Assembly (NCBI GenBank): GCA_016933965.1
Contig: JAFGTS010000027.1
Coordinates: 1-39,034, forward strand
Direction of reading: 5' to 3'
DNA length: 39,034 nt
DNA from: Deltaproteobacteria bacterium
GTDB lineage: Bacteria > Desulfobacterota > Syntrophia > Syntrophales > UBA2210
Of the stretch, positions 14,757 to 39,034 are shown piece by piece. The position numbers and the translations under genes are program-made. The notes under the pieces are model-generated. The model saw only the letters and a list, made by a program, of their open reading frames with translations. It was not told where the DNA came from and ran no database searches. Numbering within the stretch: position 1 is the first letter of the stretch; every line of letters starts with the position of its first letter.

Positions 14757-15028
14757 AGTGCCTAAGTGCCTAAGTGCCTGGTAGTATGGAAGTCCCCCTT
14801 TGAAAAAGGGGGATTGAGGGGGATTTTCAGAGAGCGACAAAGGGGCAGAGCGACAGAGTGGAAGAGTGCAAAATACAAGGGAACATGAATGCCCGTTTTT
14901 GCCCCCCTCTTTGATAAAGAGGGGTTGGGGAGATTTGCTTTTGTATAAATCCCTCCCGGCCTCCCTTTACGAAAGGGAGGTGAAAAACCTAATCCATAAT
15001 CCGTAATCCATAATCCCGATTCACGAAT
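14757..15028. repeat. Mosaic intergenic repeat block 4
   Basis: In order: GTGCCTAA/GTGCCTGG words (14757-14780), the C-box in reverse orientation (14787-14830, dyad CCCCCTTT..AAAGGGGG), GCGACAAAG-type words (14833-14866), a long unit (14879-14990) containing the CTCCCTTT..AAAGGGAGG dyad, and TAATCC-type words up to TCCCGATTCACGAAT (15014-15028). The last word supplies the stop codon of the patatin gene on the minus strand. Confidence 0.75.
14879..14990 (+). repeat. Direct repeat, left copy, flanking the patatin gene
   Basis: This 112-bp copy matches 15897-16009 in the same orientation. By my hand alignment there are four substitutions and one single-base gap. It begins GGGAACATGAATGCCCG and ends with AAAGGGAGGTGAAAAACCT. 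It ends 30 bases from the patatin stop codon. Confidence 0.9.
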
Positions 15029-16225: not shown

Positions 16226-17455
16226 ATGCCTGTTTATGAATATAATGCCCTGAATACAAAGGGTAAAAATCTCAAAGGGATCATCGATGCGGATAGCATC
16301 GCCCTTGCCCGGCAGAAACTGAGGGAGCGGGCACTCTATCCCGTTGAACTGCGTGAAACTTCGGCGAAGGTGCGGCCCGGCGGGGCCCTTTCCCGGTCGG
16401 CGGGGAACCTGTTCCGGCGGGTGGGGCTGCGGGAAGTGTCCGTTATGACGCGTCAGCTGGCAACGCTCCTCGATGCGGGGCTCCCTCTCGTTCCCTCGCT
16501 GACGGTGCTCATATCGCAGACCGTCAACCCCCAGTTGAAAAAAACGTTGGCCCAGGTAAAGGAAGAGGTCAACGAGGGAAACAGCCTGGCCCAGAGCATT
16601 TCCCACTATCCCGGTGTTTTTTCCCCCTTTTTCGTTAATATGGTACGTGCCGGCGAGGCGTCGGGGGCGTTGAATGTCGTCCTGAAGCGCCTTGCCGATT
16701 TCAACGAAAGCCGGCAGGCATTGCAGGGAAGGATACGCGCGGCCCTGACCTACCCGATCTTCATGTTCATCATTGGAAGCCTCGTCGTATTTTTCCTGAC
16801 CACCTTCATCGTGCCTCAGATCACGGAGATATTCCGTGACATGAACCAGACCCTTCCGGGAATCACCGTCTTCCTGATAACGGTCAGTGGGATTCTCCGC
16901 TCTTTCTGGCTGCTTATCCTGCTCTTCATGTGCGCGGCGATCTTCTCACTTCATCACCTCTTTACAAAAACGTCGCGGGGGCGATATCTCTGGGACAGGA
17001 TCAAGCTGAGAACGCCCTTTGTGGGTGGTCTCATACACAGAATGGCCATAGCACGCTTCGGCAGGACCCTGGGAACGCTTCTCCAGAGCGGGGTGCCCCT
17101 GCTGAACGCCCTTGCCATCGTAAAGAACGTGGTGAGCAATGAGCTTATCGCCGATGTGATACAGGACGCGGGAAAAGATGTCGAGGAAGGCCAGGGGCTG
17201 GCGGCGACCCTGTCGAAAAGCTCCCTTATCCCCCCCCTGGCGGTCCAGATGATCGCCGTCGGGGAGCAGACCGGAAACCTGGAGGAGATGCTTTTCAGGC
17301 TTTCCGACAGTTATGAACGGGAGGTCGAATCGAACATCATGGTCATCACATCGCTGCTTGAGCCCGTCATGATCCTGGTGATGGGCCTTATGGTCGCTTT
17401 TATCGTCGTATCCATACTGCTGCCGATTTTTGAGATGAACCAACTGGTTCGATAG
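16226..17455 (+). CDS. gspF: Type II secretion inner-membrane platform protein GspF
   Basis: This 409-residue polytopic protein forms the inner-membrane platform that couples the GspE motor to pseudopilus assembly. It begins MPVYEYNALNTKGK, typical of GspF, followed by two T2SSF domains (about 70-195 and 270-395) with matching motifs (RQLATLLDAGLPLVPSL and RTLGTLLQSGVPLLNAL). Three membrane segments are visible: about 175-195, 225-245 and 375-400. Normal length. The usual upstream partner gspE is missing; repeat block 5 and the patatin cassette lie there instead. gspG follows after nine bases. Confidence 0.96.
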   Translation: MPVYEYNALNTKGKNLKGIIDADSIALARQKLRERALYPVELRETSAKVRPGGALSRSAGNLFRRVGLREVSVMTRQLATLLDAGLPLVPSLTVLISQTVNPQLKKTLAQVKEEVNEGNSLAQSISHYPGVFSPFFVNMVRAGEASGALNVVLKRLADFNESRQALQGRIRAALTYPIFMFIIGSLVVFFLTTFIVPQITEIFRDMNQTLPGITVFLITVSGILRSFWLLILLFMCAAIFSLHHLFTKTSRGRYLWDRIKLRTPFVGGLIHRMAIARFGRTLGTLLQSGVPLLNALAIVKNVVSNELIADVIQDAGKDVEEGQGLAATLSKSSLIPPLAVQMIAVGEQTGNLEEMLFRLSDSYEREVESNIMVITSLLEPVMILVMGLMVAFIVVSILLPIFEMNQLVR

Positions 17456-17464
17456 GAGAATATC

Positions 17465-17905
17465 ATGAGAAAGAAACTTGACGACAGGGGATTTACCCTG
17501 ATCGAACTGATGGTGGTGATCGTCATCCTGGGGATACTGGCGGGACTGATCGTGCCCCGTATCATGGGGCGTCCTGAGGAAGCCCGGCAGGCGAAAGCCC
17601 GGATTCAGATAGAGAGCATTGAAACGGCACTCAAGCTCTACAAGCTGGACAACGGGAATTATCCCACAACGGAACAGGGATTGCGGGCCCTGGTGGAGGC
17701 GCCGGAAGTGGGAGCTCTCGCGCGGAACTGGCGTGAGGGAGGCTATCTGGAGAAGGGGAACGTTCCGAAAGACCCCTGGGGCAATGAGTATGTGTACCTC
17801 TCTCCGGGAAGCCACGGTGATTATGACATCATGTCTTACGGTGCCGACGGGGAGCTTGGTGGTGAGGACAAGAACCGCGATATTACAAGCTGGGAGATTG
17901 AATAA
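17465..17905 (+). CDS. gspG: Type II secretion major pseudopilin GspG
   Basis: This 146-residue protein has a prepilin leader cleaved after Gly9 (DDRG/FTLIE) with the conserved Glu5 of the mature protein, then a hydrophobic helix. The C-terminal domain is typical: [45 protein letters not shown], including the calcium-binding-type acidic loop of GspG proteins. It would polymerise into the periplasmic pseudopilus after processing by GspO, which is not in the window. AGGAG precedes the ATG. The end overlaps the gspH start region. Confidence 0.97.
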
Positions 17906-18401
17906 CCGGGGGTTTACCCTCGTTGAACTGACGGTGGTCATCTTTCTCATCGGGCTCATGTTCATCGTGGCCATCCCCCGTATCGGAGACACCCTGCTCA
18001 GTGATGATCTGAAAACGACCGTTAATCATCTGAACCGGACCGCCCGGGAGCTGCGGAACGAAGCCGTCAGGAGCCAGGTCAACCAACTGCTGAACCTGGA
18101 CCTTCATGAAGGCCTCATATATGTGACCAGCGAAGACATGACCCCCGAGGCCCGGTATGAAATGAGAAAACGGGCCTATCTCCTTCCCCAGGGCGTTACC
18201 ATTACCGATGTCTCGAGACCCGGCAAGGAGCGTGTCATCAACGGTGAGACGGCCGTGATCTTCTTCAAGGGCGGATTCGTCCAGCCCACGGTTATTCATA
18301 TCGCCCGCGGCGACGAGCGCTTCACCCTCGTCTTCAGCCCGTTCCTCAAGGATATCAAGGTGTATGACAAGTTGATCGAACTTGATGAGGCATATGAGTG
18401 A
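17862..18401 (+). CDS. gspH: Type II secretion minor pseudopilin GspH
   Basis: About 179 residues with a class III signal: [13 protein letters not shown], with Glu5, then a hydrophobic helix and a GspH-type C-terminal domain ([35 protein letters not shown]). Two starts are possible. The GTG at 17862 has GGGGAG seven bases upstream and a 16-residue leader. The TTG at 17898 gives a five-residue leader and overlaps the gspG stop, but has no properly spaced ribosome site. I use the GTG with moderate certainty. The gene ends the first T2SS segment; repeat block 6 and two opposite-strand genes follow. Confidence 0.85.
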
Positions 18402-18408
18402 AAAAAAA

Positions 18409-18644
18409 GTGCCTGAGTGCCTGAGTATCTGAGTGCGTGAATGCGTGACGAAAACCACCTCCCCCTTTGGAAAAGGGGGATCGAGGGGGATTTTCAGAGA
18501 GCGACAAAGGGGCAAAGGGGCAAAGAATATTAATCCGTAATCCTGCAAAAACGCCGATAAATCGGCGCACTACAAAAAAAGTCCAAACGAAGTACCCGTC
18601 GAATAATCCGTAACCCGTAATCCTTAATCCTTCCGTAATCCCCG
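18409..18644. repeat. Mosaic intergenic repeat block 6
   Basis: In order: five GTGCCTGA-like words (18409-18448), the C-box in reverse (18455-18500), GCGACAAAG/GGCAAAG words (18499-18526), TAATCCGTAATCC (18531-18543), the palindrome GCCGAT-AA-ATCGGC (18553-18566) and more TAATCC words (18605-18640). It separates gspH from the minus-strand CPBP gene. Confidence 0.75.
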
Positions 18645-18653
18645 GCCCCCCCC

Positions 18654-19301
18654 TCACGAAAACAGAAAGGACATCCCGAAGATAGCCAGGTTCCCCAGGA
18701 CATGGATGGTAATGGGGACCGTCAGGTCCTTTTCGATCTCGTAGGCGGCGGCGAAGAGGACCCCGCCGATGACCTGCGTAAGGGGAAACGACGAGCCGTG
18801 GGCGTGGGCGGCGGCGAAGAGACTGGTGCTGATGATGAGGGCCGCCGCCGTCCCCCATCTTCGACAGAACCCGTAGATAATCCCCCGAAAGAAGAGTTCC
18901 TCAACCAGGGGGCCGAGAAAACCTCCCACCGCGATGAAGAGAAAGAGTGTTCCCGTCTTCCGGGGAAGAGTGGTTCTGATGAGGTCCGTGAGAGATGCTC
19001 CCTGAAGATGAAGGACACCGGCAAGAGCGGCGGCGGCGAGGCCGAATCCGACGGACCAGATGATACCGCGACCGATGCCCCGGAAAAAGGTGTTCCCGGA
19101 CAGATTGAGCACCCCGAGACCCGATCCTCCGAAGATCAGAGTGGAAAGGATCAGGGCGGTTTCGATGGCGCGGGCCAGGCCGAGAACACACAGAGGATGC
19201 CGCCAGTCACCGCATGGTGCGCTCCGCACCACCGCTTCAACGGCCATGACCGCCATTACCGACAGTATCAGTGTTTTTCCATCGATTCCTTTTGTGTCCA
19301 T
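18654..19301 (-). CDS. CPBP-family glutamic-type intramembrane protease
   Basis: This 215-residue multi-pass membrane protein carries all CPBP/Abi motifs: EELFFR (Glu134, Glu135, Arg139), FAAAH (Phe162, His166) and HVLGN (His200, Asn204). About six hydrophobic segments are visible. Family members include CAAX-type proteases and the myxosortases, which process C-terminal sorting signals with an invariant Cys. Here the gene lies antisense inside a T2SS locus and overlaps the 3' end of the HEAT membrane protein gene by 34 bases, so these two are coupled. The start at 19301 is preferred to a GTG at 19334; neither has a good ribosome site. Its substrate is unknown. A Cys-motif protein is encoded at 34999-38937. 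Confidence 0.88.
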   Translation of the reverse strand: MDTKGIDGKTLILSVMAVMAVEAVVRSAPCGDWRHPLCVLGLARAIETALILSTLIFGGSGLGVLNLSGNTFFRGIGRGIIWSVGFGLAAAALAGVLHLQGASLTDLIRTTLPRKTGTLFLFIAVGGFLGPLVEELFFRGIIYGFCRRWGTAAALIISTSLFAAAHAHGSSFPLTQVIGGVLFAAAYEIEKDLTVPITIHVLGNLAIFGMSFLFS

Positions 19302-20755
19302 CCCAGGTCCCGCAATGCTCTGTATCCATACCACTGGCAGTACCAGTGATCGGAGGACTTGATCGTATGGATTATCGTTTCCACCGCGCCTTTTCCGTCC
19401 CGAACGCCCAGCCCTTCCAGGGCCTTGCAGACCACGTTGGGATGAGGGTCGTTGAGAAGCCTGAGCAGGTCGGCATATGTCTCCCTTCGGTGGCTGAGCC
19501 CGAGGGCCACGGCGAGCCAGTACCGTTCGGGGACAGAGGGGCTTGTCAGCGATCTTTCATAGGAAGGGAAGGTCCCTATGTCGAGGCGTCGCGACTGTAT
19601 CCGTTTCAAGGCGGCGATGCGTTCGTGGATGTCGTTCGATGTCAGGGCCTGCGCCAGGGTGGCGCTTGAAAGGGTGGTCCGTACTCCGCCGTACACCGGA
19701 AAAAAAACGACGACACCCAGGATGAAGCAAAGGGCGGCTGCGACTATGGATGCTTTTGCATCGCTCAGAAAAAAGGACAGGGGGAACCGGACCAGGACAA
19801 AGACGAATCCGTAGATAAGGATGGGAAGGCCGACGAGCAGAGAGAAAAAGGTGAAGCGGCGAAAGAGCCGGTACCGGTCGTTGAGGGATGAAAACTCCTT
19901 CAGAACAATGCCCGGGCCCTTGAGAAATTCATCGGTGCCTGTTTCAAGAAGCAGCCGCCCACGGTGTTCAAATAGAAGTTTCCCCGTTTTTTCGGTGATG
20001 ACAAGGTCGGCGCCTTCCTCGCCGCCGATATCGAGATAGTCATGGCGGCGCAGGGCCCCGTCTATGGAATCCTTCAAGGTGCCGTCGGGAACGTTTTCCA
20101 GCGAAACCGTCTTCAGGGTTTTCTTTTGAAGCGGTTTGATAACCTCCGCAGGGTACAGCGTGTAGTCGTAATAGAGATCGTTGATCGCGATTCCCGCCGG
20201 ATTCGACAGGAGCATTCCGTCCCGGATATTCAGAAAGAGGGAGCGGTCCAGGAGCGTGAGCCAGATCATCGCCAGCAATATCAGGGGAATAAGAGGTATC
20301 AGTTCCTGTTTCAGCGATGGCTGTTGTGAAGCCAGGCGAAGGGTGGCGAAAAAGACCGCCGGCGGAACGATAACGAAATAGGACGTGGCGATGATGGAAT
20401 ATCCATCGAGGTAGACGGCCACCGAGGCGGCCAGCCAGAGGGCGCCCGTGATACAGTCGCATATCCGGCGATTACGCAGGCAGTGCGAGCGGATGCGTCC
20501 CGCGGCGTATCCCAGCAGGGTCAGTCCCGTACCGAGGGTGAGCGTGAAAAAGAACCCGCCCCAGAAGGCGGGCCCGATGGCATTCAGGTGAGCCGCGATC
20601 CGTTCCGTGGGGATTATGAAATAGCCGAGGTCCCGGAGGATGGTAAGCTTTTCCTGAAGCTTCACGTTCGAAAGATACAACTGAAAAGTGGCGATAACCT
20701 GGCTCAGACCGAGACCGAGGAGAAATATTTTCACCGTTGCAAGGTATTTGTTCAT
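19268..20755 (-). CDS. Multi-pass membrane protein with C-terminal HEAT-like repeats
   Basis: This 495-residue protein has about seven predicted membrane segments (for example KIFLLGLGLSQVIATF, LIPLIPLILLAMIWLTLL, FFSLLVGLPILIYGFVFVLV and AALCFILGVVVFFPVYG). A soluble domain lies between segments five and six, and a C-terminal HEAT/Armadillo-like region spans about 385-490 (YADLLRLLNDPHPNVVCKALEGLGV, then a second helix pair). I do not recognise a named family. HEAT repeats usually bind proteins, so it could be a scaffold or partner of the overlapping CPBP protease. The start at 20755 begins the first membrane segment; upstream in-frame codons look non-coding. It diverges from the PpiC-type gene. 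Confidence 0.75.
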   Translation of the reverse strand: MNKYLATVKIFLLGLGLSQVIATFQLYLSNVKLQEKLTILRDLGYFIIPTERIAAHLNAIGPAFWGGFFFTLTLGTGLTLLGYAAGRIRSHCLRNRRICDCITGALWLAASVAVYLDGYSIIATSYFVIVPPAVFFATLRLASQQPSLKQELIPLIPLILLAMIWLTLLDRSLFLNIRDGMLLSNPAGIAINDLYYDYTLYPAEVIKPLQKKTLKTVSLENVPDGTLKDSIDGALRRHDYLDIGGEEGADLVITEKTGKLLFEHRGRLLLETGTDEFLKGPGIVLKEFSSLNDRYRLFRRFTFFSLLVGLPILIYGFVFVLVRFPLSFFLSDAKASIVAAALCFILGVVVFFPVYGGVRTTLSSATLAQALTSNDIHERIAALKRIQSRRLDIGTFPSYERSLTSPSVPERYWLAVALGLSHRRETYADLLRLLNDPHPNVVCKALEGLGVRDGKGAVETIIHTIKSSDHWYCQWYGYRALRDLGWTQKESMEKH

Positions 20756-21070: not shown

Positions 21071-22024
21071 ATGTCAGGAAAAAGAATTTTGGGTATCGTT
21101 CTCTGTTTTCCGGTTGTTTTCATGCTCTGTGCGCTCCTGCCGGCACCGGCGTCGGCGGCCGATAAGGCGGAGCCGAATGCGCTCGTAAAGATCGGTGATT
21201 CGGTCATAACCGAAGCGGATCTCGAGCAGCGTATCGCTTCGTTCCCGGACAGGGTGAAACAGCGCTATCAGGGAGAGAACGGAAGAAGACAGTTGCTGGA
21301 AAAGCTGGTGGAGTTGAAGATATTCTCCCTTGAAGCGCGGGCGGAAAAACTGGACCAGGATAAGGATGTCAAGGTACGTATGGAAGATGCCGCGGACAGT
21401 GTCCTTGCCCAGGAATACGTTCAGAAAAAAGGGTTGGTTGATCCGCAGATCACCGAAAAAGAGATAGAGGAATATTATGAGAAGAACAAGGCCGAGTTCT
21501 TGCGGCCCGCCCTGGTGAAGGCACGCCAGATATTGATCAAAGCGGGTCCCAAGGTCTCCGCTGAAGAGATATCGGCCGGCGAGAAGAAAGCACGGAAGAT
21601 CGTGGAAGAACTGAAAGCGGGAGGGGATTTCACAGCGCTGGCGAAGCAATATTCCGATGACGAGCGGTCGAGGTCACGGGGGGGCGCCATGGGATATGTG
21701 ACGAAGAACAATATTCCCTCCGAGCTCTGGAACGTGGCCTGGTCCCTGAAGGAAGGAACGGTCAGTGACCCTGTAAAAACGGAAGATGGGTTCCATATCA
21801 TAGCGGTTGAAGAAAAACAGCCTGAGCGCGAACTTTCCCTTCAGGAGGCGGAAAAGAAGATACGGTCCACCCTTGAAACACTGAAAAAGCATTCCATGAT
21901 GGAGCAGGAAAAGGGTCACCTCATGAAAAAATATGCCGTCGAATTCCTCGCGCCCGCATCGATGGGAGCGTCAAAATCAGGCGGAAAAGAATTGAAAAAG
22001 AAGTTCAAGATCAAGACGGACTGA
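21071..22024 (+). CDS. PpiC/SurA-type periplasmic peptidyl-prolyl isomerase
   Basis: This 317-residue protein has a signal peptide ending near ASAADK. An N-terminal SurA-like helical region follows (VITEADLEQRIASFPDRVKQRY..), and then a parvulin domain at about 145-250: VKARQILIKAG, GGDFTALAKQYSDDERSRSRGGAMGYV and VSDPVKTEDGFHIIAVEEK. The tail is basic and helical. It would help exported proteins fold in the periplasm, and its place at the head of gspIJK suggests a role for T2SS parts or substrates. gspI follows after 37 bases. Confidence 0.9.
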   Translation: MSGKRILGIVLCFPVVFMLCALLPAPASAADKAEPNALVKIGDSVITEADLEQRIASFPDRVKQRYQGENGRRQLLEKLVELKIFSLEARAEKLDQDKDVKVRMEDAADSVLAQEYVQKKGLVDPQITEKEIEEYYEKNKAEFLRPALVKARQILIKAGPKVSAEEISAGEKKARKIVEELKAGGDFTALAKQYSDDERSRSRGGAMGYVTKNNIPSELWNVAWSLKEGTVSDPVKTEDGFHIIAVEEKQPERELSLQEAEKKIRSTLETLKKHSMMEQEKGHLMKKYAVEFLAPASMGASKSGGKELKKKFKIKTD

Positions 22025-22061: not shown

Positions 22062-22451
22062 ATGAAAATCCTTCATCGATTCCCTTTCAATTTCCGGCGG
22101 GGGTTTACCCTGCTTGAAGTAATGCTGGCGATGGCCGTCCTGGCCATCGCCCTCGTCGCTGTTTTTCAGTCCCAGTCGCAGAGCATCTCCATGGCGGGCA
22201 TATCGAGATTTTACACGACAGCGCCCCTTCTCGCCCAGAGCAAGATGGCCGAAACGGAGGCAATGCCGGTTGCCGATATCGTCAGCGAAGACGGTGATTT
22301 TGGAGAAGACTTTCCCCAGTATGCCTGGCAGGTCACCGTTGCCGAGACGGGATTTGAGTTTCTAAAGCGGATAGAGGTGACGGTGACGGGCGCCATGATG
22401 AATTCAAACAATACTTATCAGTTGACCATGTACCGGTTCACGGGCCAGTGA
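22062..22451 (+). CDS. gspI: Type II secretion minor pseudopilin GspI
   Basis: This 129-residue pseudopilin has a 14-residue leader ending FRRG, cleaved before FTLLEVMLAM with Glu5. A short C-terminal domain follows (YAWQVTVAETGFEFLKRIEVTV), as in GspI. GspI nucleates the GspI-J-K tip of the pseudopilus. GAGGGG lies just upstream of the ATG. It is followed by gspJ with overlap or a short gap, depending on the gspJ start. Confidence 0.93.
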   Translation: MKILHRFPFNFRRGFTLLEVMLAMAVLAIALVAVFQSQSQSISMAGISRFYTTAPLLAQSKMAETEAMPVADIVSEDGDFGEDFPQYAWQVTVAETGFEFLKRIEVTVTGAMMNSNNTYQLTMYRFTGQ

Positions 22452-22483
22452 GACCTTTGCTGCCGTCGGAGAGCGTGATCGAT

Positions 22484-23137
22484 ATGAGAGCGGAGGGACA
22501 GAGCGGTTTTACCCTGATGGAGATCATGATCGCCATCCTCATTCTCGGGACGGTGCTCACCACCGTCTATGCCGCCTATACGGGGACGCTCCGGATCGTT
22601 AAGGAAACGCAACATGCCGACGAGACCTATGACATGGCGCGGATGACCCTGAAACTCATGACGGAGGACCTCGCCTCCGTCCAATCCTGCCGGGGTGTTT
22701 TCATCTTCCACTCCCTGTCGAGCGATATAGCCGATGCCGATTTCACGGAACTTGCCTTTCTCTCATCGTCACATCTTGATTTCGACAACGGCACGCAGTC
22801 GGGCAATGCCATGATCCATTACTATGTCAAAGAAATTGAGCCCGGTTCCCATGCGCTTTTTCGAAAGGATACCCTCTTCCGGTGGGAAGAGGAGAAGACC
22901 TTCGAACGTGAAGGAGGGTACATGGTGTGCGACAGGCTCGAGTCCCTGGCGTTCCTGTTCTATGGCAGCGATGGTGAGGAATATGAAACATGGGATTCCG
23001 ACGAGAACCGGGAACAGGAGAAAAACAAGGCGCCGGCGGTCGTGCGGATAGATCTGGCCTTCACGGGGCCGGGAGAGGAAGTCGAACCGTACCGGTTCAG
23101 GACGGGTGTATATATCCCCATGATGGGGGGAAAATGA
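22484..23137 (+). CDS. gspJ: Type II secretion minor pseudopilin GspJ
   Basis: This 217-residue pseudopilin has the class III leader MRAEGQSG cut before FTLMEIMIAI, with Glu5. The C-terminal domain matches the GspJ type (DMARMTLKLMTEDLASV, FLSSSHLDFDNGTQSG, VCDRLESLAFLFYG). The ATG at 22484 with GGAG upstream is chosen. A GTG at 22448, overlapping the gspI stop, would give a longer 20-residue leader. GspJ is part of the tip complex with GspI and GspK. The stop overlaps the gspK start (ATGA). Confidence 0.92.
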   Translation: MRAEGQSGFTLMEIMIAILILGTVLTTVYAAYTGTLRIVKETQHADETYDMARMTLKLMTEDLASVQSCRGVFIFHSLSSDIADADFTELAFLSSSHLDFDNGTQSGNAMIHYYVKEIEPGSHALFRKDTLFRWEEEKTFEREGGYMVCDRLESLAFLFYGSDGEEYETWDSDENREQEKNKAPAVVRIDLAFTGPGEEVEPYRFRTGVYIPMMGGK

Positions 23138-24108
23138 AGGATTTCATTGGAAATGACCGCGGTATAGCGCTGGTCATCGTGATCCTTTTGGTCGCCGTCA
23201 TCGTCGCGGTGACGATACAGCTCAACCGTGCCACCAGGACGGAGGTGACGGACGCCGCGAACCTGCGGGACGGTGTTACTCTCCTGTACATCGCCAAATC
23301 AGGGTATAACGGGGGAACGGCCTTTCTGCGTCAGGACACGAACGAATATGATTCCCTTACCGAGGACTGGGCCAGGTCTTCCCTGCTCTCGGCGTCATCG
23401 AGCGTCCTTTTCGATGAGGGGTACTTTATTCTGCTCATTGAGGATGAATCGAGAAAGATACCGATCAACAGGCTGGTAAGCGCAAATGAGTATAATCCGC
23501 TCATTGAGGACCTGCTGATGCGGTTCCTGATGCTTCCCGAGTTCGAACTGACCCAGCAGGATGCCGGGGATATCATGGATGCCGTAAAGGACTGGATAGA
23601 CGACGATGACGAGGTGACGGGATTCGGGGCGGAGGACCTCTATTACCGGAGCCTTGATGACGCGTATACCTGCAAGAACGGACCCCTCGATTGTGTCGAT
23701 GAGCTTCTCATGGTAAAAGGCGTTTCGCCGGAACTGCTCTATGGAACGACGGAGAAACCCGGTATTGCTCCCTACCTGACCGTCCATGGCAACGGAAAGA
23801 TCAATATCAACACGGCGGAGCCGCGGGTGCTGCAGGTACTGTCGCCGGACATTACGGAAGAAATGGCGTCGGATATGGATGCGTACAGAAAAGATAAAGA
23901 GAATGCACTTTCCCAAACGACATGGTATAAGAACGTGACCGGTATGGACGCGATCGTTATTGAGGGGATGCTGATCTCGACGCAAAGCGATGTCTTCAGG
24001 ATCATATCAACGGGGTATCTGGGTGATATGAGAAAGACCGTAACTGGTGTCGTGGACAGGGACAGGGACAAGAAAACGGTGAAGCTCCTGTCCTGGGCGG
24101 TTGAATGA
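23134..24108 (+). CDS. gspK: Type II secretion minor pseudopilin GspK
   Basis: This 324-residue large pseudopilin has the leader MKDFIGNDRG before IALVIVILLV. As expected for GspK, it lacks Glu5. The body shows GspK motifs: ILLIEDESRKIPINRLV, DAVKDWIDDDDEVTGFGAED, LDCVDELLMVKG and INTAEPRVLQVL. GspK caps the pseudopilus tip. The start overlaps the gspJ stop by four bases. Repeat block 7 begins directly after its stop codon and ends this transcriptional segment. Confidence 0.93.
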   Translation: MKDFIGNDRGIALVIVILLVAVIVAVTIQLNRATRTEVTDAANLRDGVTLLYIAKSGYNGGTAFLRQDTNEYDSLTEDWARSSLLSASSSVLFDEGYFILLIEDESRKIPINRLVSANEYNPLIEDLLMRFLMLPEFELTQQDAGDIMDAVKDWIDDDDEVTGFGAEDLYYRSLDDAYTCKNGPLDCVDELLMVKGVSPELLYGTTEKPGIAPYLTVHGNGKININTAEPRVLQVLSPDITEEMASDMDAYRKDKENALSQTTWYKNVTGMDAIVIEGMLISTQSDVFRIISTGYLGDMRKTVTGVVDRDRDKKTVKLLSWAVE

Positions 24109-24364
24109 TCGGGATTCGGGAAACGAGAATCGGGGATTATTTGACAAGTGTGTTGTTTGGTCTATGTATGTAGTGTGCCGATTTATCGGCGTTTTTACGG
24201 ATTACGGATTATGGATCAGGTTTTTCACCTCCCTTTCGTAAAGGGAGGCCGGGAGGGATTTATGTATTTAAAATCCCCCTCGATCCCCCTTTGCCAAAGG
24301 GGGAGGCGGGCTTTGTCACGCATTCACGCATATACGCACTCAGGCACTTAGGTACTCAGGCACT
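24109..24364. repeat. Mosaic intergenic repeat block 7
   Basis: In order: TCGGGATTCGGGAAACGAG word (24109-24127), TTGTTTGGTCTATGTATG, the palindrome GCCGAT-TT-ATCGGC (24177-24190) with T-run, GATTACGG words (24197-24213), the CTCCCTTT..AAAGGGAGG dyad (24229-24248) within the unit 24216-24262, the C-box (24270-24306) and ACTCAGGCACT-type words (24317-24364). Its left part is closely similar to 3221-3302. It splits gspK from gspL. Confidence 0.75.
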
Positions 24365-24385
24365 TTTTATTAAGGAAAACTGACA

Positions 24386-25909
24386 ATGCCGGAAAAAATT
24401 CTGGGACTCGACATTGGAACGGAAACCATCAAGGCCGTTCAGGTCATGACGGGTTTGAAAGGGTACCGGGTAACCCGTTCCGCGTTGGTGGATATCGAAG
24501 AGGCCGGCGGTCCCGGCGGGGCGCTCAAGTCGCTTCTGCAGGGTGGCGAACTGGCGAGCGGCATCTATATCACGGCGATCCCGATGAGAGATGTTTCTTT
24601 CCGTTCCATAGGGTTTCCGTTCAAGGACAGGCGAAAGATACAACAGGCCCTTCAGTACGAGATGGAGCAACTTATTCCCCGTCCGGCTGACGAGCTTCTT
24701 TTTGATTTTATCGTCAGGGAACAGACCGACCGCACCGATATAATCGTTGCCGCTGCGCCGCGGCAACGGGTGGGGGAACTCGTTCATCTTCTGGCAGAGC
24801 AGGCGGCGGAGGCCGCCCTGATCGATATCGATGCCGTTCCCATAGCCGCGAAAGCAGCCGCCGGCGGCGGAACGTCCATTCTTCTCGATATCGGGTCCCT
24901 CCATACGACGGTGTTCTTTCTCGATAAAGGCGCCGTGCAGCAACTCCGGGTACTGTCCTTCGGCGGTCGGGTTGTAACGGAAACGATCGCGCATGCCCTG
25001 GGAATGGGATCCCGCGAGGCCGAGCAGGTGAAGCGGTCCGGTGACGTGAGCGCAGCCCGGGAAGAACTTGCCGTCCTGTACCGAAAGCTGGTGAGGGACG
25101 TTCAAAATACCCTGGAATATGTCCGTCTCCGAGGGGAATTCACGGGGATACCGTCCGGGATACTTCTCACCGGCGGTGGGGCACATTCTCCGGGCCTTCG
25201 GGAAGAGCTGGAAAAGGCTTTATCCCTGCCCGTTGAGGACGTGGATATAGCCGCTATCGAGAAGGTCGAATTTGACGAGCAGTTCGAGGGCCCCCGGGAC
25301 CCCGTGCTGATGAACCAGGCGCTTGCCCTCGCGACACGGGAATCCCGCAGAGGGGGAGGATTCAATTTCTGTGTCGGTGAATATACGCCGAAGAAGCGCT
25401 ACGAAGGCGCCAAACGGGATATCCGGTGGGTTGCCATCCTTGCCGGGATCGTGCTGGCCTTCTGGGGTGCCGATTATTATGTGGGATATCATACTGAAAA
25501 GGCGTACGTGGATAACCTGAAACGCACGGAGCAGATCATATTCAAGGAGACCTGCCCCGATGTGGCGAAGATCGTCGATCCGGTCCACCAGCTTCAGGTA
25601 AAGATAGATGAGATAAAAAAGGCCTCCGCGGCCGGGGGTGGTCCGGGCATGAAGGTTTCCGTTCTCGACGTGCTGGGAGACATCTCGAAAGCCGTTCCGC
25701 CGGAAGTGGATTTTCTCATTACCAGTTTCACCTATGACGGCAGTTCCATTGAAATAAAGGGAGAAACGGACAATTTCAACAGCGTCGATACGATAAAGAA
25801 CAGCCTCGGTGCCGCTGATTATATCACCGATGTTACGGTCAGCTCGGCGAAGCTCATAAAGAACGACAGCCGGGTCGGATTTGACCTGAAAATGGTCATG
25901 TCCGGCTGA
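24386..25909 (+). CDS. gspL: Type II secretion protein GspL, PilM-like
   Basis: This 507-residue protein has an N-terminal actin-like domain of the PilM/GspL type (ILGLDIGTETIKAVQV, FPFKDRRKIQQALQYEMEQLIP, SILLDIGSLHTTVFFL, GILLTGGGAHSPGLREEL). One membrane span follows at about 348-370 (WVAILAGIVLAFWGADYYVGY), then a periplasmic ferredoxin-like domain of PilN/GspL type. It links the cytoplasmic motor to the periplasmic GspM. A PilM-like GspL is usual for deltaproteobacterial systems. AAGGAAA precedes the ATG. It begins the gspL-M-N-C segment directly after repeat block 7; its promoter, if separate, is not evident. Confidence 0.9.
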   Translation: MPEKILGLDIGTETIKAVQVMTGLKGYRVTRSALVDIEEAGGPGGALKSLLQGGELASGIYITAIPMRDVSFRSIGFPFKDRRKIQQALQYEMEQLIPRPADELLFDFIVREQTDRTDIIVAAAPRQRVGELVHLLAEQAAEAALIDIDAVPIAAKAAAGGGTSILLDIGSLHTTVFFLDKGAVQQLRVLSFGGRVVTETIAHALGMGSREAEQVKRSGDVSAAREELAVLYRKLVRDVQNTLEYVRLRGEFTGIPSGILLTGGGAHSPGLREELEKALSLPVEDVDIAAIEKVEFDEQFEGPRDPVLMNQALALATRESRRGGGFNFCVGEYTPKKRYEGAKRDIRWVAILAGIVLAFWGADYYVGYHTEKAYVDNLKRTEQIIFKETCPDVAKIVDPVHQLQVKIDEIKKASAAGGGPGMKVSVLDVLGDISKAVPPEVDFLITSFTYDGSSIEIKGETDNFNSVDTIKNSLGAADYITDVTVSSAKLIKNDSRVGFDLKMVMSG

Positions 25910-25959
25910 ATGCCGGATGATTACCGTTGCCACGCCGCCGGAGGTATTGAAACAGGAAT

Positions 25960-26490
25960 ATGAATATCGGAAAATATACCTTGTCCAAACGTGAAAAGTT
26001 TTATCTCGCTGGAGGCATCGGATTCGTCGTCCTCTTTTTCGTCGTTCAGTTCGTGTTCTTTCCTCTGGTCGAGGCGCGGGAAAATCTTGCCCGGGCGACG
26101 CGGGTCCATGAAAAGGCCCTCGCGGATATCATGAAACTGAGCGCCGAATGCAAATCCCTTCAGACCGATACGGTGAGCATCGATCGGGCCATTGCCGCGC
26201 GACCGGCTGATTTTACGCTGTTCTCCTTTCTTGAAAGACAGGCCGGTGAGGCCGGGCTGAAGGGCAATATCAAATATATGAAACCCTCGCTCTCCGCTGA
26301 AGGGACACCGTACAAGGAATCTTCCGTGGAGATGCGGCTCGAGGACGTCACCCTTGAACAGCTTGTCGAATACCTCTATCTTGTGGAATCACCGGCCTTC
26401 CTGGTTCACGTCAAGCGTATTTCGATCAAGCAGGGTGTCGGCGGTTCTGAATACCTCACAGCCCTGATCCATCTGGTAACCTACCAATAG
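25960..26490 (+). CDS. gspM: Type II secretion protein GspM
   Basis: This 176-residue bitopic protein has a short cytoplasmic start, one membrane span (about 16-36, FYLAGGIGFVVLFFVVQFVFF), a coiled-coil-prone helix (38-75) and a small ferredoxin-like periplasmic domain. That domain ends in the region LEQLVEYLYLVESPAFLVHVKRISIK, typical of GspM/PilO-type proteins. It pairs with GspL in the assembly platform. Identification rests on topology, motif and gene order. gspN follows after eight bases. Confidence 0.88.
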   Translation: MNIGKYTLSKREKFYLAGGIGFVVLFFVVQFVFFPLVEARENLARATRVHEKALADIMKLSAECKSLQTDTVSIDRAIAARPADFTLFSFLERQAGEAGLKGNIKYMKPSLSAEGTPYKESSVEMRLEDVTLEQLVEYLYLVESPAFLVHVKRISIKQGVGGSEYLTALIHLVTYQ

Positions 26491-26498
26491 GCAATGAT

Positions 26499-27320
26499 AT
26501 GAAAAGAAAATTACTGGTGGGCTATATTGTGTACGGCGTTCTGGTGACGGGACTTTTTCTCTGGTGGCTGTTCCCCGCCGAGATACTCATTGATTCCTTA
26601 CGGTCGGCGGTTTCAGCGCGGGTCCCGGGGCTTGTGTTCAGCGTGGAAAAAGCGGGACTGAGCTTTCCTCCGGGAGTGAAATTACGGGACTGTACCTTCC
26701 AGTCGAAATCAAAACCCTCACTGTCGGTGATCCTTGACATGATAGAAGTGCGGCCGGCCCTGGGGAGCGTCATCTTCGGGGACAAGGCCATTCTGGTCCG
26801 GGCAAAGGCCTATGGCGGCACGATAAAGGCGAGGGTGACGGCCCCCGAGGGTGATGACGGGAATGGCACGGTCCGGGTTGATGCCGCGGCCGACGGCATA
26901 GAGGCGGGGAAATGTACCTGGATCGAAGTCCTGGCAGGACGGAAATTTCAGGGGTCGGTGACAGGGACCCTCGCATACGAGGGAACCGCGGCGAAACCGC
27001 TGGCAGGTTCGGGTGACCTTTCCCTTTCCATTAAGGACGGCGTGATCCCATTGGCGGGTGACCTGTTCGGATTCAGCGAGATACCCTTTGATACCCTGGA
27101 ATCAAAGGCGACCATGAAGAACCGGGTCGTCAAGATCGACACCCTGAACATCAGGGGGCCGGCCGTGGGTGGTGAGTTTAACGGAAGGGTGTCGCTGCGT
27201 GAGCCCCTTGATATGAGTACCATGGCTCTCCAGGGAGATGTGAACGTGCATGCCCTGAACAGAACGATGAAAATTTCACTGACGGGGACAGTAGCAAAAC
27301 CGATTCCAAGGGTGAGATGA
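26499..27320 (+). CDS. gspN: Type II secretion protein GspN
   Basis: This 273-residue protein has an N-terminal membrane anchor (GYIVYGVLVTGLFLWWLFPAEIL) and a beta-rich periplasmic part (DCTFQSKSKPSLSVILDMIEV, LAGSGDLSLSIKDGVIPL). This is the GspN type, with an AsmA-like repeating fold. GspN is an accessory T2SS protein of uncertain role that is common in deltaproteobacteria. It lies between gspM and gspC, and only four bases separate it from gspC. Confidence 0.88.
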   Translation: MKRKLLVGYIVYGVLVTGLFLWWLFPAEILIDSLRSAVSARVPGLVFSVEKAGLSFPPGVKLRDCTFQSKSKPSLSVILDMIEVRPALGSVIFGDKAILVRAKAYGGTIKARVTAPEGDDGNGTVRVDAAADGIEAGKCTWIEVLAGRKFQGSVTGTLAYEGTAAKPLAGSGDLSLSIKDGVIPLAGDLFGFSEIPFDTLESKATMKNRVVKIDTLNIRGPAVGGEFNGRVSLREPLDMSTMALQGDVNVHALNRTMKISLTGTVAKPIPRVR

Positions 27321-27324
27321 GATC

Positions 27325-28176
27325 ATGTTGACACGGTACCGCCCATTCGTCATTCTGCTGGCAATAACACTACTGTCCTACTTCTCCGTGGACATGTTCT
27401 ACAGGATTATCAAGGCCGGCATGGTACGGGCCCTGCCCGGTACAATTGTCACGGAGATAAAACCGGACCGCAAAACGCAACGGCGGCCGACCTTGGATTC
27501 TTACCTGGTTATTTCCGACAGAAACCTCTTCGGTTCCGCCCGGAAGGAAAAGTTCGCCGCCGCCGAGCAGATCAATGTGGAGGAACTGAAGGAAACGGCC
27601 CTGAACCTGGCTCTCCTCGGAACGGTGTACAGCGGTGACGAAGGGGGATTTGCCGTCATTGAGGAAGTGGACAAGAAAAAACAGGGGTTGTATCGGATCG
27701 GCGATACCGTGGGCGAGGCGACCATCAAGAAGATCATGCGGGGCGTTGTTGTTCTCAGGGTCAAGAACAACGACGAGGTCCTGATGATGGAGGAACGGAA
27801 AAAAACGGCCTCCATCGCCGGTGAGGTGCCGGAGCCGGCGGAAATGTCTTCACCGTCATCCGTCACCGTCAGCAAAGCGGAGATCGAGAACGCTTTTCAG
27901 GACATGAATGCCGTCATGACGCAGGTCCGCATCCGGCCTTTTTTTACGGACGGGAAGCCGGATGGTTTCATGATCAGCAGGATCCAGAAGGGAAGCATCT
28001 TTGACCGGATGGGAATACAGAACGGCGACGTCGTGCAGGGTGTCAACAGCCAGGCGCTCAGCAGCGCCGACGACCTGCTCACCCTTTACCAGGAATTGAA
28101 AAGCGGTTCCGAGGTCCTGCTCAACATAAAGAGACGGGGGCAGGAGGAAACGCTGAAGTATGTGTTTGAGGAGTGA
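27325..28176 (+). CDS. gspC: Type II secretion protein GspC with PDZ domain
   Basis: This 283-residue bitopic inner-membrane protein has a membrane span at about 8-25. The HR homology region (SDRNLFGSARK, then LALLGTVYSGDEGGFAVIEE and YRIGDTVGEATIKKIMRGVVVL) contacts the GspD N0 domain. A C-terminal PDZ domain (about 195-280: IRPFFTDGKPDGFMISRIQKGSIFDRMGIQNGDVVQGVN) is often involved in substrate choice. Normal length. It closes the gspLMNC segment and is followed by repeat block 8. Confidence 0.94.
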   Translation: MLTRYRPFVILLAITLLSYFSVDMFYRIIKAGMVRALPGTIVTEIKPDRKTQRRPTLDSYLVISDRNLFGSARKEKFAAAEQINVEELKETALNLALLGTVYSGDEGGFAVIEEVDKKKQGLYRIGDTVGEATIKKIMRGVVVLRVKNNDEVLMMEERKKTASIAGEVPEPAEMSSPSSVTVSKAEIENAFQDMNAVMTQVRIRPFFTDGKPDGFMISRIQKGSIFDRMGIQNGDVVQGVNSQALSSADDLLTLYQELKSGSEVLLNIKRRGQEETLKYVFEE

Positions 28177-28180
28177 GAGA

Positions 28181-28376
28181 CTAAGTGCCTGAGTTCCTGA
28201 GTACCAAAATGCGGGATTACGGATTATGGATTACGGAATAGGATTATGGATTAGGTTTTTCACCTCCCTTTCGTAAAGGGAGGCCGGGAGGGATTTATAT
28301 ACTTGAAAATCCCCCTCAATCCCCCTTTTGCAAAGGGGGACTTCCATAATACCAGGCACTCAGACACTCAGGCACT
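28181..28376. repeat. Mosaic intergenic repeat block 8
   Basis: In order: AGTGCCTGAGTTCCTGAGT words (28184-28202), GGATTACGGATTATGG words (28213-28255), the CTCCCTTT..AAAGGGAGG unit (28254-28300), the C-box (28304-28350) and CAGGCACTCAGACACT words (28354-28376). It lacks the GCCGAT palindrome. It ends 14 bases before the start codon of the ExeA-like gene. Confidence 0.75.
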
Positions 28377-28389
28377 GCATTTTAAACTT

Positions 28390-29322
28390 ATGTACAAATC
28401 ATTTTTCGGTTTATTGGAGAACCCCTTCAACCTGACACCTGATCCCCGGTACCTCTATCTGGCTCCGCAGCATCGGGACGCGCTTAACCACCTGCTCTTC
28501 GGTGTCCATGAAAAGAAGGGATTCATCGTTATCACCGGCGGTGTCGGGACGGGCAAGACGACACTGTGCAGGGCATTTCTCGCCGCCCTTGACGAGAGGG
28601 TGTCGAGCGCCCTTATTTTCAATTCGGCCATATCGGATGTTGAACTGCTGCGGACGATCATGCAGGAGTTCGAGATACGGACGGGGAGAGGGAGGATATC
28701 GAAAAAGCGGTATATCGATGCTCTCAATCAGTTCCTGTTGAAGGAATTTGCCGAGGGAAGGAACGCCGTTCTCCTCATTGACGAAGCCCAGAATCTCTCA
28801 CGAAATGTACTGGAACAGATACGGATGCTCTCGAACCTTGAAACGGACCGGGAAAAACTCCTGCAGATCGTATTGCTCGGCCAGCCCGAACTGGAAGATG
28901 TCCTGCGGTCTCCGTCCCTGCGCCAGCTCAATGAGCGGATCACGGTCCGCTATCACCTCGAGCCCCTGGACAGGCAACAGGTCGAGCAATATGTCGAACA
29001 CCGGCTGTCGGTGGCCGCCGGTGAGAACAGGAACCTGCGGTTCGAGCCGGGCGCGTTCCGGACGATCCACTCCAATTCCCGTGGTATTCCGAGAAGGATC
29101 AATGTCATATGCGACCGCGCGCTGCTCATAGCCTACACGAAGGATACGGCCATTGTGGACAGGGCGATCGTTGAAGAAGCCGTGGCGGACATCGGCGGCG
29201 GATACATGAAGATTCCCGGGTATGAAAAAGGTCCCGCCACGGATCGTGTTGTTTCCCTGCTCGTTCTGCTCGTTTTCGCCATCCTTCTGCTGATCGGTAC
29301 GATATACTCAGGCCTGCTCTGA
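28390..29322 (+). CDS. gspA: ExeA/GspA-like AAA ATPase
   Basis: This 310-residue ATPase of the ExeA type has MYKSFFGLLENPFNLTPDPRYLYL at the start, the hallmark of this group. Walker A is GGVGTGKT (50-57), Walker B is AVLLIDEAQ, and an ELEDVLRSPSLRQLNERI segment follows. A C-terminal membrane span lies at about 283-307. There is no peptidoglycan-binding extension, so the protein is shorter than Aeromonas ExeA. With a GspB-like partner, it would help place the secretin through the cell wall. No ribosome site is visible before the ATG, because repeat block 8 comes almost up to it. Confidence 0.88.
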   Translation: MYKSFFGLLENPFNLTPDPRYLYLAPQHRDALNHLLFGVHEKKGFIVITGGVGTGKTTLCRAFLAALDERVSSALIFNSAISDVELLRTIMQEFEIRTGRGRISKKRYIDALNQFLLKEFAEGRNAVLLIDEAQNLSRNVLEQIRMLSNLETDREKLLQIVLLGQPELEDVLRSPSLRQLNERITVRYHLEPLDRQQVEQYVEHRLSVAAGENRNLRFEPGAFRTIHSNSRGIPRRINVICDRALLIAYTKDTAIVDRAIVEEAVADIGGGYMKIPGYEKGPATDRVVSLLVLLVFAILLLIGTIYSGLL

Positions 29323-29362
29323 GAGCGGTGCCGCGAAACAATAAGGAAGATGACCGATTGAA

Positions 29363-30094
29363 ATGAGCTATATCCACGACGCGCTGAAAAAGGCACAGAA
29401 GGAGAAGGACAGCCTCTACCGGAATTATGCCGGCGTTATAACGGCGGCGGGATCGGAGAAAAAGCGCGGCGGGCCGCTGCGTATCTCAATCGCCGGGATC
29501 CTTTCAATAGTGCTTGCCTTGGCGGCCCTTTCACTGTTAGGATACAGCTTTTCTTTGAAAGGGGAGAAGGTGGCGACGGCCGGTGTAGAACAGAACACGG
29601 CCGTTTCCATGCCGGCCGCCGGAGAAGTGGAGAAGGTCGTTCCGGCGACCCCTGAGGGAGCGGAAGAGAACGCGGCCGGCACGGCAGCGATCGATGATGT
29701 TGTAATGCTTTACGAGGACGGCCTCGAATGGCAGCGCGCCGGTGATCTGCTGAAGGCGGAGGTGACGTACCGGAAAGTGCTGGAGATCGACCCGACCTTC
29801 TCCCGTGCCCTGAATAATCTCGGTGTCATCGCCATGGCCGGCAACCGGAACGCGGAAGCCCTGATGCTTTTTGAACGGGCCCGGGAGGCAGGGAAGGGCT
29901 ATGTCGACCCCGCATACAATATGGCCTGTCTGTATGCACGCATGGGAAGGGTCGGCGACGCCATGGAAAACCTGAAGGAAGCGGTTCGGCTTGACGAGTC
30001 GGTGCTGCAATGGGCACAGACCGATCCCGACCTGGCGAAGCTCCGGTCAACGGTCGATTATCGTGAATATTTTACTCAGAATCGGGGAGGGTAG
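29363..30094 (+). CDS. GspB-like membrane protein with TPR domain
   Basis: This 243-residue protein starts MSYIHDALKKAQKEKD, the short cytoplasmic motif shared with GspB/ExeB-type proteins. One membrane span (about 40-66) and an Ala/Glu-rich linker follow. Instead of the usual GspB C-terminal domain, it has TPR repeats (about 115-225: YEDGLEWQRAGDLLKAEVTYRKVLEIDP, ALNNLGVIAMAGNRNAEALMLFERA). It lies directly between the ExeA-like ATPase and the secretin gene, so it is likely the ATPase's partner in secretin insertion. AAGGAAGA lies 12 bases upstream of the ATG. Confidence 0.8.
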   Translation: MSYIHDALKKAQKEKDSLYRNYAGVITAAGSEKKRGGPLRISIAGILSIVLALAALSLLGYSFSLKGEKVATAGVEQNTAVSMPAAGEVEKVVPATPEGAEENAAGTAAIDDVVMLYEDGLEWQRAGDLLKAEVTYRKVLEIDPTFSRALNNLGVIAMAGNRNAEALMLFERAREAGKGYVDPAYNMACLYARMGRVGDAMENLKEAVRLDESVLQWAQTDPDLAKLRSTVDYREYFTQNRGG

Positions 30095-30106
30095 AACGGG
30101 ATAGAT

Positions 30107-32272
30107 ATGAAGAAATCAGTAAGAACCTTGATGACGATCGCTGTGGCACTGGTCTTAATCGTTGCTTCGATGCCGGCGGGAACCGTCATGGGAGCCCGGG
30201 TGACCGGAAACGACGACGTGGTTCCCACGGTACAGGACCGGGAAGAGACAACGCCGGCGGCGGAAGCGGCGCCTGCCCGTCCCGAGGCAAGAAGACCCGA
30301 TACGAGACGGACCAAAGTCAGGGAAACCCGTCCGATACCGGCGGGGGCGCAGGCCCCGGCAACCCCGGTCGAAGCGGCACCGGCTCCGGAAGCAACAGCC
30401 ACGCAGAAGGTTGAGAAGACCACCGTTGACTCTCAGTATGTCACCATCGACTTCGAAGATGTGGACATCAGGGTGTTCATCAAGTTCATCAGTGAATTGA
30501 CCGGGAAGAACTTCGTCATAGACCGCAATGTGAAGGGAACGGTGACCATCATTTCCCCGCGGAAAATATCGGTTGACGAGGCATACAAGGTCTTTGAATC
30601 GGTCCTCGATGTTCACGACTACACGGCGGTGCCGGCAGGGGATATTATCAAGATAATCCCGGTACGGACGGCAAAGGAAAAGAACGTGGAAACCCTCCTG
30701 CGGGAGCAGGCACGGAGTTCCGAGGACAAGGTGGTGACCCAGCTCATTCCGCTCAAATACGCCGATCCCGAAGAGATGAAGAAGGTCCTGATCCCCCTTG
30801 TTTCGAAAGAGAGCGTCATCTTGTCCTATTCCGCGACGGGGATGCTCATTATCACGGACCTCCTTTCCAACGTGAAACGGCTCCTGACGATCGTGGACGC
30901 GCTGGATGCCGAGGGCATCGAGGAACAGATAGCCGTCATTCCCCTGAAATATGCCGATGCCGTGGAGATTTCGAAATCGCTGACGTCCATATTCCAGCAG
31001 GGACGACAGCCCAAGCGGGGCGCGGCGGAGCCGACCGTCCGCGTTGTGCCCGATGAGCGGACCAACACGATCATCACGCTTGCCAGTGAAAATGATACCA
31101 ACAAAATAAAACAGCTCATCGAGCTTCTCGATCGGGAGGTTCCCCGGGGCGAGGCGAAGATCCGGGTCTATCACCTTGAAAACGCCGATGCCGAGGAACT
31201 GACGAAGGTCCTTATGGATATACCCACCGGCGACGACGCGAAGCGGGCGGCCCAGGGCGGCCAGGCGGCGCCGCTCCTGTCGAAGGAAGTAAAGGTGGTG
31301 CCCGACAAGGCCACGAATACGCTCATCATCACGGCGGGCAGGGATGATTACACGGTGCTGGAAGAGGTCATCAAGGAACTCGATGTTCCCCGGCCGATGG
31401 TGTACATAGAAGCGCTCATAATGGAGGTCAACGTCGACAAGGACATGAGGATCGGCGCGGAGTGGGTCGGCGGTGAGCGTTTTCACAGCGACAGCAACAA
31501 GGTATACGGCGGCGGCTTCACACTGCCATCGGGTTCCAGCATCATGCCCGGGGTCGACTCGACGGGGCTTCTTTCCTATCCCGCGGGTTTTTCAGTGGGT
31601 GTCTTCGGCGAGTCCATCAAGATAGGCGATATCACATTCCCCTCGCTCGGCGCCGTTTTCAACGCCTACCGCGAGGACAGCGACGTCCATATCCTCTCGA
31701 CGCCGCAGGTGCTGACCCTCGATAATCAGGAGGCGGAAATTTACGTGGGGGAGAACGTGCCCTATCAGACGAGACAGGAAACGTCGACGACGGACAGGGA
31801 CTACAGCACATACGAATACAAGGACGTGGGCGTTACGCTGCGCCTGACGCCCCAGATCAGCCAGGAACGCTTTGTGAGGCTGGACATCTATCAGGAAGTG
31901 ACCAAGCTCAAGTCCCAGGTCGAGGACCGTCCCACTACCCTCAAGCGCACGGCGAAGACGGCGGTGACCATCAAGGATAAATATACGGTGGTTGTGGGAG
32001 GGCTCATCGGTGACGATATCAACAACACGGTCTATAAGATCCCGCTCCTGGGGGATATCCCATACCTCGGCTATCTCTTCAAGTATGACAGCTCAACCCG
32101 TGAGAAGCGGAACCTTTTCATATTTATCACCCCCCATATTATCGAAAATCCGGTAGAGGCGAGCGATCTGTATGAGAAGAAACAGGGGATGATCGATTCC
32201 ATGGAGGAAGGGGTCATCAAGAGGCACACGCGGGACAAGTCGTCTGCTGAGGGAATACGAATAGAGGATTAA
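30107..32272 (+). CDS. gspD: Type II secretion outer-membrane secretin GspD
   Basis: This 721-residue secretin has a signal peptide (1-30) and an Ala/Pro-rich linker (about 40-105). The N0 domain (VTIDFEDVDIRVFIKFISELTGKNFVID..) is followed by three N1-N3-type KH-like modules, each with LKYADPEEMKKVL- or LENADAEELTKVL-like sequence. The C-terminal secretin core begins at about 425 (VYIEALIMEVNVDKDMRIGAEW) and includes VPYQTRQETS and YKDVGVTLRLTPQI. It would form the outer-membrane channel. No pilotin gene is seen. gspD usually stands beside gspC and gspE; here it is last in the locus. Confidence 0.96.
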   Translation: MKKSVRTLMTIAVALVLIVASMPAGTVMGARVTGNDDVVPTVQDREETTPAAEAAPARPEARRPDTRRTKVRETRPIPAGAQAPATPVEAAPAPEATATQKVEKTTVDSQYVTIDFEDVDIRVFIKFISELTGKNFVIDRNVKGTVTIISPRKISVDEAYKVFESVLDVHDYTAVPAGDIIKIIPVRTAKEKNVETLLREQARSSEDKVVTQLIPLKYADPEEMKKVLIPLVSKESVILSYSATGMLIITDLLSNVKRLLTIVDALDAEGIEEQIAVIPLKYADAVEISKSLTSIFQQGRQPKRGAAEPTVRVVPDERTNTIITLASENDTNKIKQLIELLDREVPRGEAKIRVYHLENADAEELTKVLMDIPTGDDAKRAAQGGQAAPLLSKEVKVVPDKATNTLIITAGRDDYTVLEEVIKELDVPRPMVYIEALIMEVNVDKDMRIGAEWVGGERFHSDSNKVYGGGFTLPSGSSIMPGVDSTGLLSYPAGFSVGVFGESIKIGDITFPSLGAVFNAYREDSDVHILSTPQVLTLDNQEAEIYVGENVPYQTRQETSTTDRDYSTYEYKDVGVTLRLTPQISQERFVRLDIYQEVTKLKSQVEDRPTTLKRTAKTAVTIKDKYTVVVGGLIGDDINNTVYKIPLLGDIPYLGYLFKYDSSTREKRNLFIFITPHIIENPVEASDLYEKKQGMIDSMEEGVIKRHTRDKSSAEGIRIED

Positions 32273-38937: not shown

Positions 38938-38950
38938 GAAATTACACGAG

Positions 38951-39015: not shown

Positions 39016-39034
39016 GATGGTGTTCTCGTTGATA

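Follow-up and report, generated by a model that had tools for sequence, protein, structure and literature searches.

The window, meaning here the whole stretch of 39,034 nucleotides that was analysed, is a complete contig whose readable sequence stops at position 39034, and it carries a cluster of type II secretion system (T2SS) genes on its plus strand. Inside this cluster two genes lie antisense between gspH and ppiC (Table 1), one encoding a CPBP intramembrane glutamic protease and the other a membrane protein with HEAT repeats, hereafter the HEAT protein; the stop codon of the HEAT gene is found 34 nt inside the CPBP gene, and the CPBP start precedes it. An earlier note on this DNA had described a CPBP protease with intact motifs and an overlapping seven-span HEAT protein nested opposite gspH and ppiC-gspI, as well as a secreted giant ending in a Gly/Ser linker and Cys-Phe-Ile, and both descriptions hold.

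Table 1. Features of the window considered in this study.
Feature	Positions	Strand	Remarks
gspF, gspG, gspH (T2SS cluster)	16226..18401	+	
CPBP (Rce1-like) intramembrane glutamic protease, 215 aa	18654..19301	-	EExxxR, H166 and HxxxN intact
Seven-span HEAT-repeat membrane protein, 495 aa	19268..20755	-	overlaps CPBP gene by 34 nt
CFI-box-like module in HEAT protein, residues about 172-208, SLFLNIRDGMLLSNPAGIAINDLYYDYTLYPAEVIKP	20132..20242	-	directly after TM5
Exported PpiC-type peptidyl-prolyl isomerase	21071..22024	+	
gspI, J, K, L, M, N, C, ExeA-like AAA ATPase, TPR protein, gspD	22062..32272	+	
Secreted 1312-aa giant with PKD-type domains, signal peptide and short tag at its end	34999..38937	+	candidate substrate
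Gly/Ser-rich linker and short tag CFISTTLGR	38863..38934	+	Cys codon 38908-38910

Other features of the window were also observed. Dispersed intergenic repeats translating as 'LKIPLNPPFxKGD' are located at 2239-2300, 14762-15139, 18440-18560 and 28303-28370, one of them just downstream of the CPBP gene. A lipoprotein-like gene of the sulfatase-modifying-factor type (FGE, 13901-14752) lies near the T2SS cluster, and the order FGE, T2SS, acyl-CoA dehydrogenase is retained in locus L109. Past the stop codon of the giant (38947-39034), a short palindrome-like repeat (GTCATTCCCGCGGAGGCGGGAATCCAG) occupies the contig end, which is possibly why the assembly breaks there.

The start of the protease backed by its homologues is the ATG at 19301, the nominal open reading frame opening with a GTG at 19334. 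Its motifs are EELFFRG (E134/E135/R139), H166 and HVLGN (H200/N204), and all six residues are unchanged across the CPBP homologues (n=55); the PF02517 match reaches 61.1 bits against a gathering score of 22.4 (E=1.3e-16). The predicted structure (pLDDT 93) has two outstanding matches among solved structures, namely SpdC of the SagB-SpdC complex (6u0o; Z 13.5, rmsd 4.3, 203 residues aligned) and the archaeal Rce1 CaaX protease (MmRce1, 4cad; Z 11.3, rmsd 4.1, 194 aligned), all others being far lower; both came from a second aligner, Foldseek by itself giving no CPBP match for the model. None of the NCBIfam myxosortase cut-offs was reached by the window protein (MrtJ 37.5 against 75, MrtS 30.3 against 130, Mrt_core 13.5 against 100), further members of the family gave only modest E-values with these models, and the best weak match was MroQ.

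The AlphaFold2 model of the HEAT protein (pLDDT 93, pTM 0.90) shows seven helices of membrane length; helix 5 is followed by an alpha/beta domain, and HEAT repeats form the C-terminal domain. The lysine and arginine counts of the short loops alternate across 64 homologues, from which a periplasmic location is predicted for both the alpha/beta domain and the HEAT domain. HEAT_2 matches were obtained for all 64 family members at E<=0.01, the window protein itself scoring 27.3 bits, slightly below the cut-off of 27.7, and HEAT repeats aside, the Pfam scan of the family gave no consistent family match. Residues 361-495 resemble alpha-Rep structurally (Z about 13), a result that describes the repeat domain, which dominated the fold search, and not the membrane half. 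At least 129 homologous HEAT loci were found in public genomes by profile search, most of them in Desulfobacterota; among the matches listed, one locus each is labelled Nitrospirae and SAR324. Given this number, and a CPBP gene adjacent in nearly all of the 80 loci inspected, the locus is not a product of chance.

In 69 of the 80 sampled loci the profile places CPBP next to HEAT or overlapping it, with an overlap of 19-37 nt in near relatives. The other 11 comprise one in which CPBP is hidden by Ns, three with the order CPBP-HEAT, two at contig edges and five without CPBP, so that hand inspection rescues at least four further pairs (one under Ns, three in the order CPBP-HEAT). T2SS genes were found close by in 17 of the 80 loci, about 13 of these having two or more Gsp genes, and none were seen near the pair in most of the sample. 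The linkage takes several forms: the pair may occupy the opposite strand between gspH and gspI, which is the arrangement of the window (L101, L109, L111, L112, L119), or stand first in a co-directional run before gspG (L155), after gspD (L158, L167), or next to gspF where the gspD operon runs divergently (L142, L147, L163). The gspH-CPBP-HEAT-ppiC order for which a search had been suggested is kept in near relatives but not beyond them; the recurrence of linkage in different layouts favours a functional tie to T2SS over one inherited accident.

The giant ends in GSSEGEGGSGGSCFISTTLGR, and at least seven proteins of the source genome end in a Gly-rich linker followed by CFIx[T/S], with the stop within 7-10 residues of the Cys. 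The other tags in this genome are CFITTTEAP, CFIRTVLP, CFIETLSGGF, CFIGTLCGKR, CFIGSTCE and CFISSISRK, and the preceding linker is clearly Gly-rich in nearly all cases. The 44 candidate tags collected, three of which (L137, L240 and L260) resemble chance frames, follow the motif C-F-I-x-[T/S], in most of them with a hydrophobic residue next, and are 7-11 residues long counting the Cys, so that the consensus can be written C-F-I-x-[T/S]-(hydrophobic)-x(1-5); they have neither a membrane helix nor a basic tail. A very loose tag pattern, tried in five genomes, returned noise only. Signal peptides were recognized by eye in the five tagged proteins with a readable N-terminus (the window giant, L080, L121, L160 and L168). 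The choice-of-anchor-U domain (NF041766) directly precedes the tag in five of ten tagged proteins scanned; judging by its NCBI name, we take it to be a domain that precedes varied C-terminal anchors. No protein of the source genome scored over the 40-bit cut-off of NF041770, the CFI-box-CTERM model, and the CFI tail of the giant thus stands as a Cys tag but not as a known CFI-box-CTERM.

At some loci a tagged gene is also a neighbour of HEAT or CPBP. At L121 a tagged secreted protein is encoded convergently to CPBP, about 40 bp apart. At L160 (9551-11174, SAR324) the HEAT frame opens at the stop of a 1301-aa, CFM-tagged protein ending in GGGGGGGGGCFMSSIQSDD; this HEAT gene has no CPBP neighbour, and its protease partner, if any, would be encoded elsewhere. 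Secreted hydrolase-like proteins are encoded near the pair in L168 (14474-15427) and L169 (4444-5419) and have GGGGGGCAIAVITDF or GGGGGGGGCAIAILSGF as their C-terminus, which could be a CAIA variant of the tag.

The distribution of tags follows that of HEAT. Among 149 near relatives, verified short tags were found in 6 of 14 genomes with HEAT and in 0 of 135 without it, and within the window's own family in 6 of 10 and 0 of 9, respectively. Phylum-wide, verified 8-residue tags occur in 17 of 395 genomes, and all 17 carry the HEAT family, including G509, whose HEAT assignment was made after its tag had been seen. By genome this corresponds to tags in 17 of 38 HEAT-bearing against 0 of 357 HEAT-free genomes (p=1e-19), the pair and the tags being phylogenetically clustered and the genomes in these counts not independent; by family it corresponds to 7 of 15 HEAT-positive against 0 of 93 (p=2e-7). 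With the first HEAT profile alone, 12 of the 17 tagged genomes were HEAT-positive (p=3e-11). The remaining five comprise G509, with a divergent HEAT gene directly upstream of its CPBP gene (L253), and G204, G374, G508 and G526, which have the form belonging to family f52. This family initially gave the impression of having tags without HEAT, which was overturned when a family-specific profile found divergent HEAT genes (matches confined to HEAT-repeat columns were dropped as non-specific). In f52 the HEAT homologue stands alone near pyrH-frr (L221-L224, L239, L240) and the CPBP homologue, unlinked from it, is mostly beside selB (L242-L252), both being kept in all tagged genomes tested. Tag-pattern matches in the HEAT-free genomes G034, G093, G113, G130 and others are due to chance, the frames upstream being very short or lacking a Gly-rich linker.

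The occurrence of the pair in genomes without Cys-motif proteins had been named in the earlier note as a count against its reading; taken at face value this applies to about half of the HEAT-bearing genomes, in which tag-negatives are under-called because the phylum census covers 8-residue tags only and finds about 60% of known tags. CPBP proteins are common and the census was made with the HEAT profile, so the specific association is established for HEAT and not separately for CPBP. The pair and verified tags are also present in a complete isolate genome, that of Desulfonema magnum. The notion of a protease, partner and substrate set with HEAT as a new component, put forward in the same note, is supported by the tagged genomes as well as by the T2SS linkage.

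One feature was missed in the earlier note and is added here: a CFI-box-like module, the most conserved segment of the HEAT protein, in which R178, D179, G188, Y195, Y196, T199 and A203 are invariant. NF041770 is the commonest NCBIfam match in the HEAT family (60 of 64 members, best E 1e-4), covering residues 176-207 of the window protein. Profile-profile comparison of the long CFI-box with HEAT by hhalign gave P 4.8e-8 over 36 columns (RD-x2-LL-x-N-x2-G-x6-YY), the f52 form matching the long-box profile more weakly. Among 70 real HEAT proteins this profile matched 64, at a median of 14.7 bits, against 5 of 420 shuffled or reversed controls, all five at about 10 bits or less. On these sequence comparisons, the segment is homologous to the RD-LL-N-G-YY module of CFI-box-CTERM. 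In HEAT the module is positioned just outside membrane helix 5, predicted to be periplasmic, and in long CFI-box proteins between the Cys and the membrane helix. The long and short forms are nearly complementary, 14 of 15 relatives with verified long boxes having no HEAT. The homology, the placement and this complementarity lead us to propose that HEAT may provide in trans the module which long boxes contain in cis and which is missing from the short-tagged proteins.

Taken as a whole, these results are best explained by a system that sorts exported proteins by their C-termini and has the CPBP-HEAT pair as its processing machinery, a reading which we consider probable. Substrates would enter the periplasm by means of their signal peptides, presumably through Sec, presenting the Gly-rich linker and the 7-11 residue tag as the C-terminal sorting signal. 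The tag would then be received by HEAT, whose CFI-box-like module, alpha/beta and HEAT domains are all on the predicted periplasmic side, and the partner CPBP would cut at or just after the Cys by analogy with MrtX, which cleaves at its invariant Cys in a Cys-dependent manner, with lipidation and T2SS export having been proposed (PMC11980579). The tag Cys would probably be lipidated, and the product would reach the surface through the T2SS encoded around the pair, probably to be anchored there. A more specific version, in which the CFI-box is a divided signal, with a helix-free Cys tag on the substrates and the HEAT module acting in trans to deliver them to a T2SS-coupled CPBP, is quite possible and is advanced tentatively.

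It is unlikely, in our estimation, that the pair is instead a T2SS accessory, helping to assemble, fold or quality-check the secretion machinery or the proteins it carries, with no action on the tag and with tagged proteins being merely cargo. Repeated linkage in several layouts and the PpiC gene adjoining the pair would agree with such a role, but it sits poorly with the majority of sampled loci, where no T2SS gene was seen nearby, with the tagged gene adjoining a CPBP-less HEAT gene in L160, with the CFI-box module inside HEAT and with the lack of verified tags in the 357 HEAT-free genomes. Another reading, to which we give rather little weight, makes HEAT the tag-specific enzyme or receptor, with another protease or transferase acting on the tag and CPBP having a separate membrane role. 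The tags do track the HEAT component, which lacks an adjacent CPBP in five loci and is unlinked from it in f52; the overlap with CPBP is nevertheless conserved at almost every locus, all f52 tagged genomes tested have a CPBP of the same subfamily, and Cys-containing C-terminal signals are processed by known CPBP enzymes (PMC11980579).

A coincidence of lineage, in which the same Desulfobacterota clades possess HEAT, CPBP and short tags independently of one another, appears improbable: all three are concentrated in related families and the genomes are not independent, yet all seven tagged families are HEAT-positive, the contrast persists within the window's own family, a tag gene lies beside HEAT in SAR324, and HEAT and the CFI-box are homologous in sequence. 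Very improbable, finally, is that CPBP has nothing to do with sorting and is just a protein of the usual CaaX type or one resembling bacteriocin-immunity proteins. This could be argued from its scores below all myxosortase cut-offs and its weak resemblance to MroQ, but its near-constant pairing with HEAT and the T2SS linkage speak against it, and none of the neighbouring genes was recognized as a bacteriocin gene.

The sorting system proposed here resembles several known ones. The targets of CaaX processing are prenylated cytosolic proteins in which three residues follow the Cys; the Rce1 CaaX protease shares the fold, the catalytic residues and a short C-terminal tail after the Cys with the present system, in which the proteins are instead exported and 6-10 residues follow. 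SpdC is regarded as non-proteolytic and, although it is the best structural match and likewise a CPBP-fold membrane protein with a partner, it differs from our CPBP, in which the catalytic residues are invariant. CFI-box-CTERM shares the CFIxT start after a Gly-rich linker, which is present in the tagged proteins, and the RD-LL-N-G-YY module, common to HEAT. In relatives, however, it is a long domain of about 100 residues with the module, a membrane helix and a basic end, whereas the short tag comes to its end 7-11 residues from the Cys, and NF041770 gives it no score.

A further likeness is to MrtX and MYXO-CTERM, with a CPBP protease, an invariant Cys near the C-terminus, signal-peptide proteins and a proposed T2SS route (PMC11980579); MrtC, MrtP, MrtJ/JDVT-CTERM and MrtS/Synerg-CTERM were grouped with MrtX in this comparison. 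The myxosortase analogy drawn in the earlier note is retained for the set of parts. The myxosortase-type substrate signal, made up of a Cys motif, a transmembrane helix and a basic tail, was not found, the tags ending 6-10 residues after the Cys with neither the helix nor an Arg-rich tail, and a conserved overlapping HEAT partner is found here, none being seen for MrtX in the passages of that paper that were consulted. With CPBP below every myxosortase cut-off and the tag failing NF041770, we regard the system as an analogue of myxosortase systems and not a member, and it is best called CPBP-dependent Cys-tag sorting with a new partner. Our literature search returned no description of it and no mention of 'CFI-box', most subscription papers being outside its scope, and a prior description is possible.

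To our knowledge, the lipidating factor of CPBP-dependent Cys-tag systems is still unidentified. The system described here would add to them a C-terminal sorting signal without a membrane anchor, together with a partner protein, and would assign a function to a large membrane family that matches Pfam by HEAT repeats only. It would also offer a clue to the reading of the common CFI-box domain and, should the divided-signal proposal be true, the tag would be the exported counterpart of the CaaX box. With the short tag, surface proteins could be predicted in many bacteria that reduce sulfate or live syntrophically.
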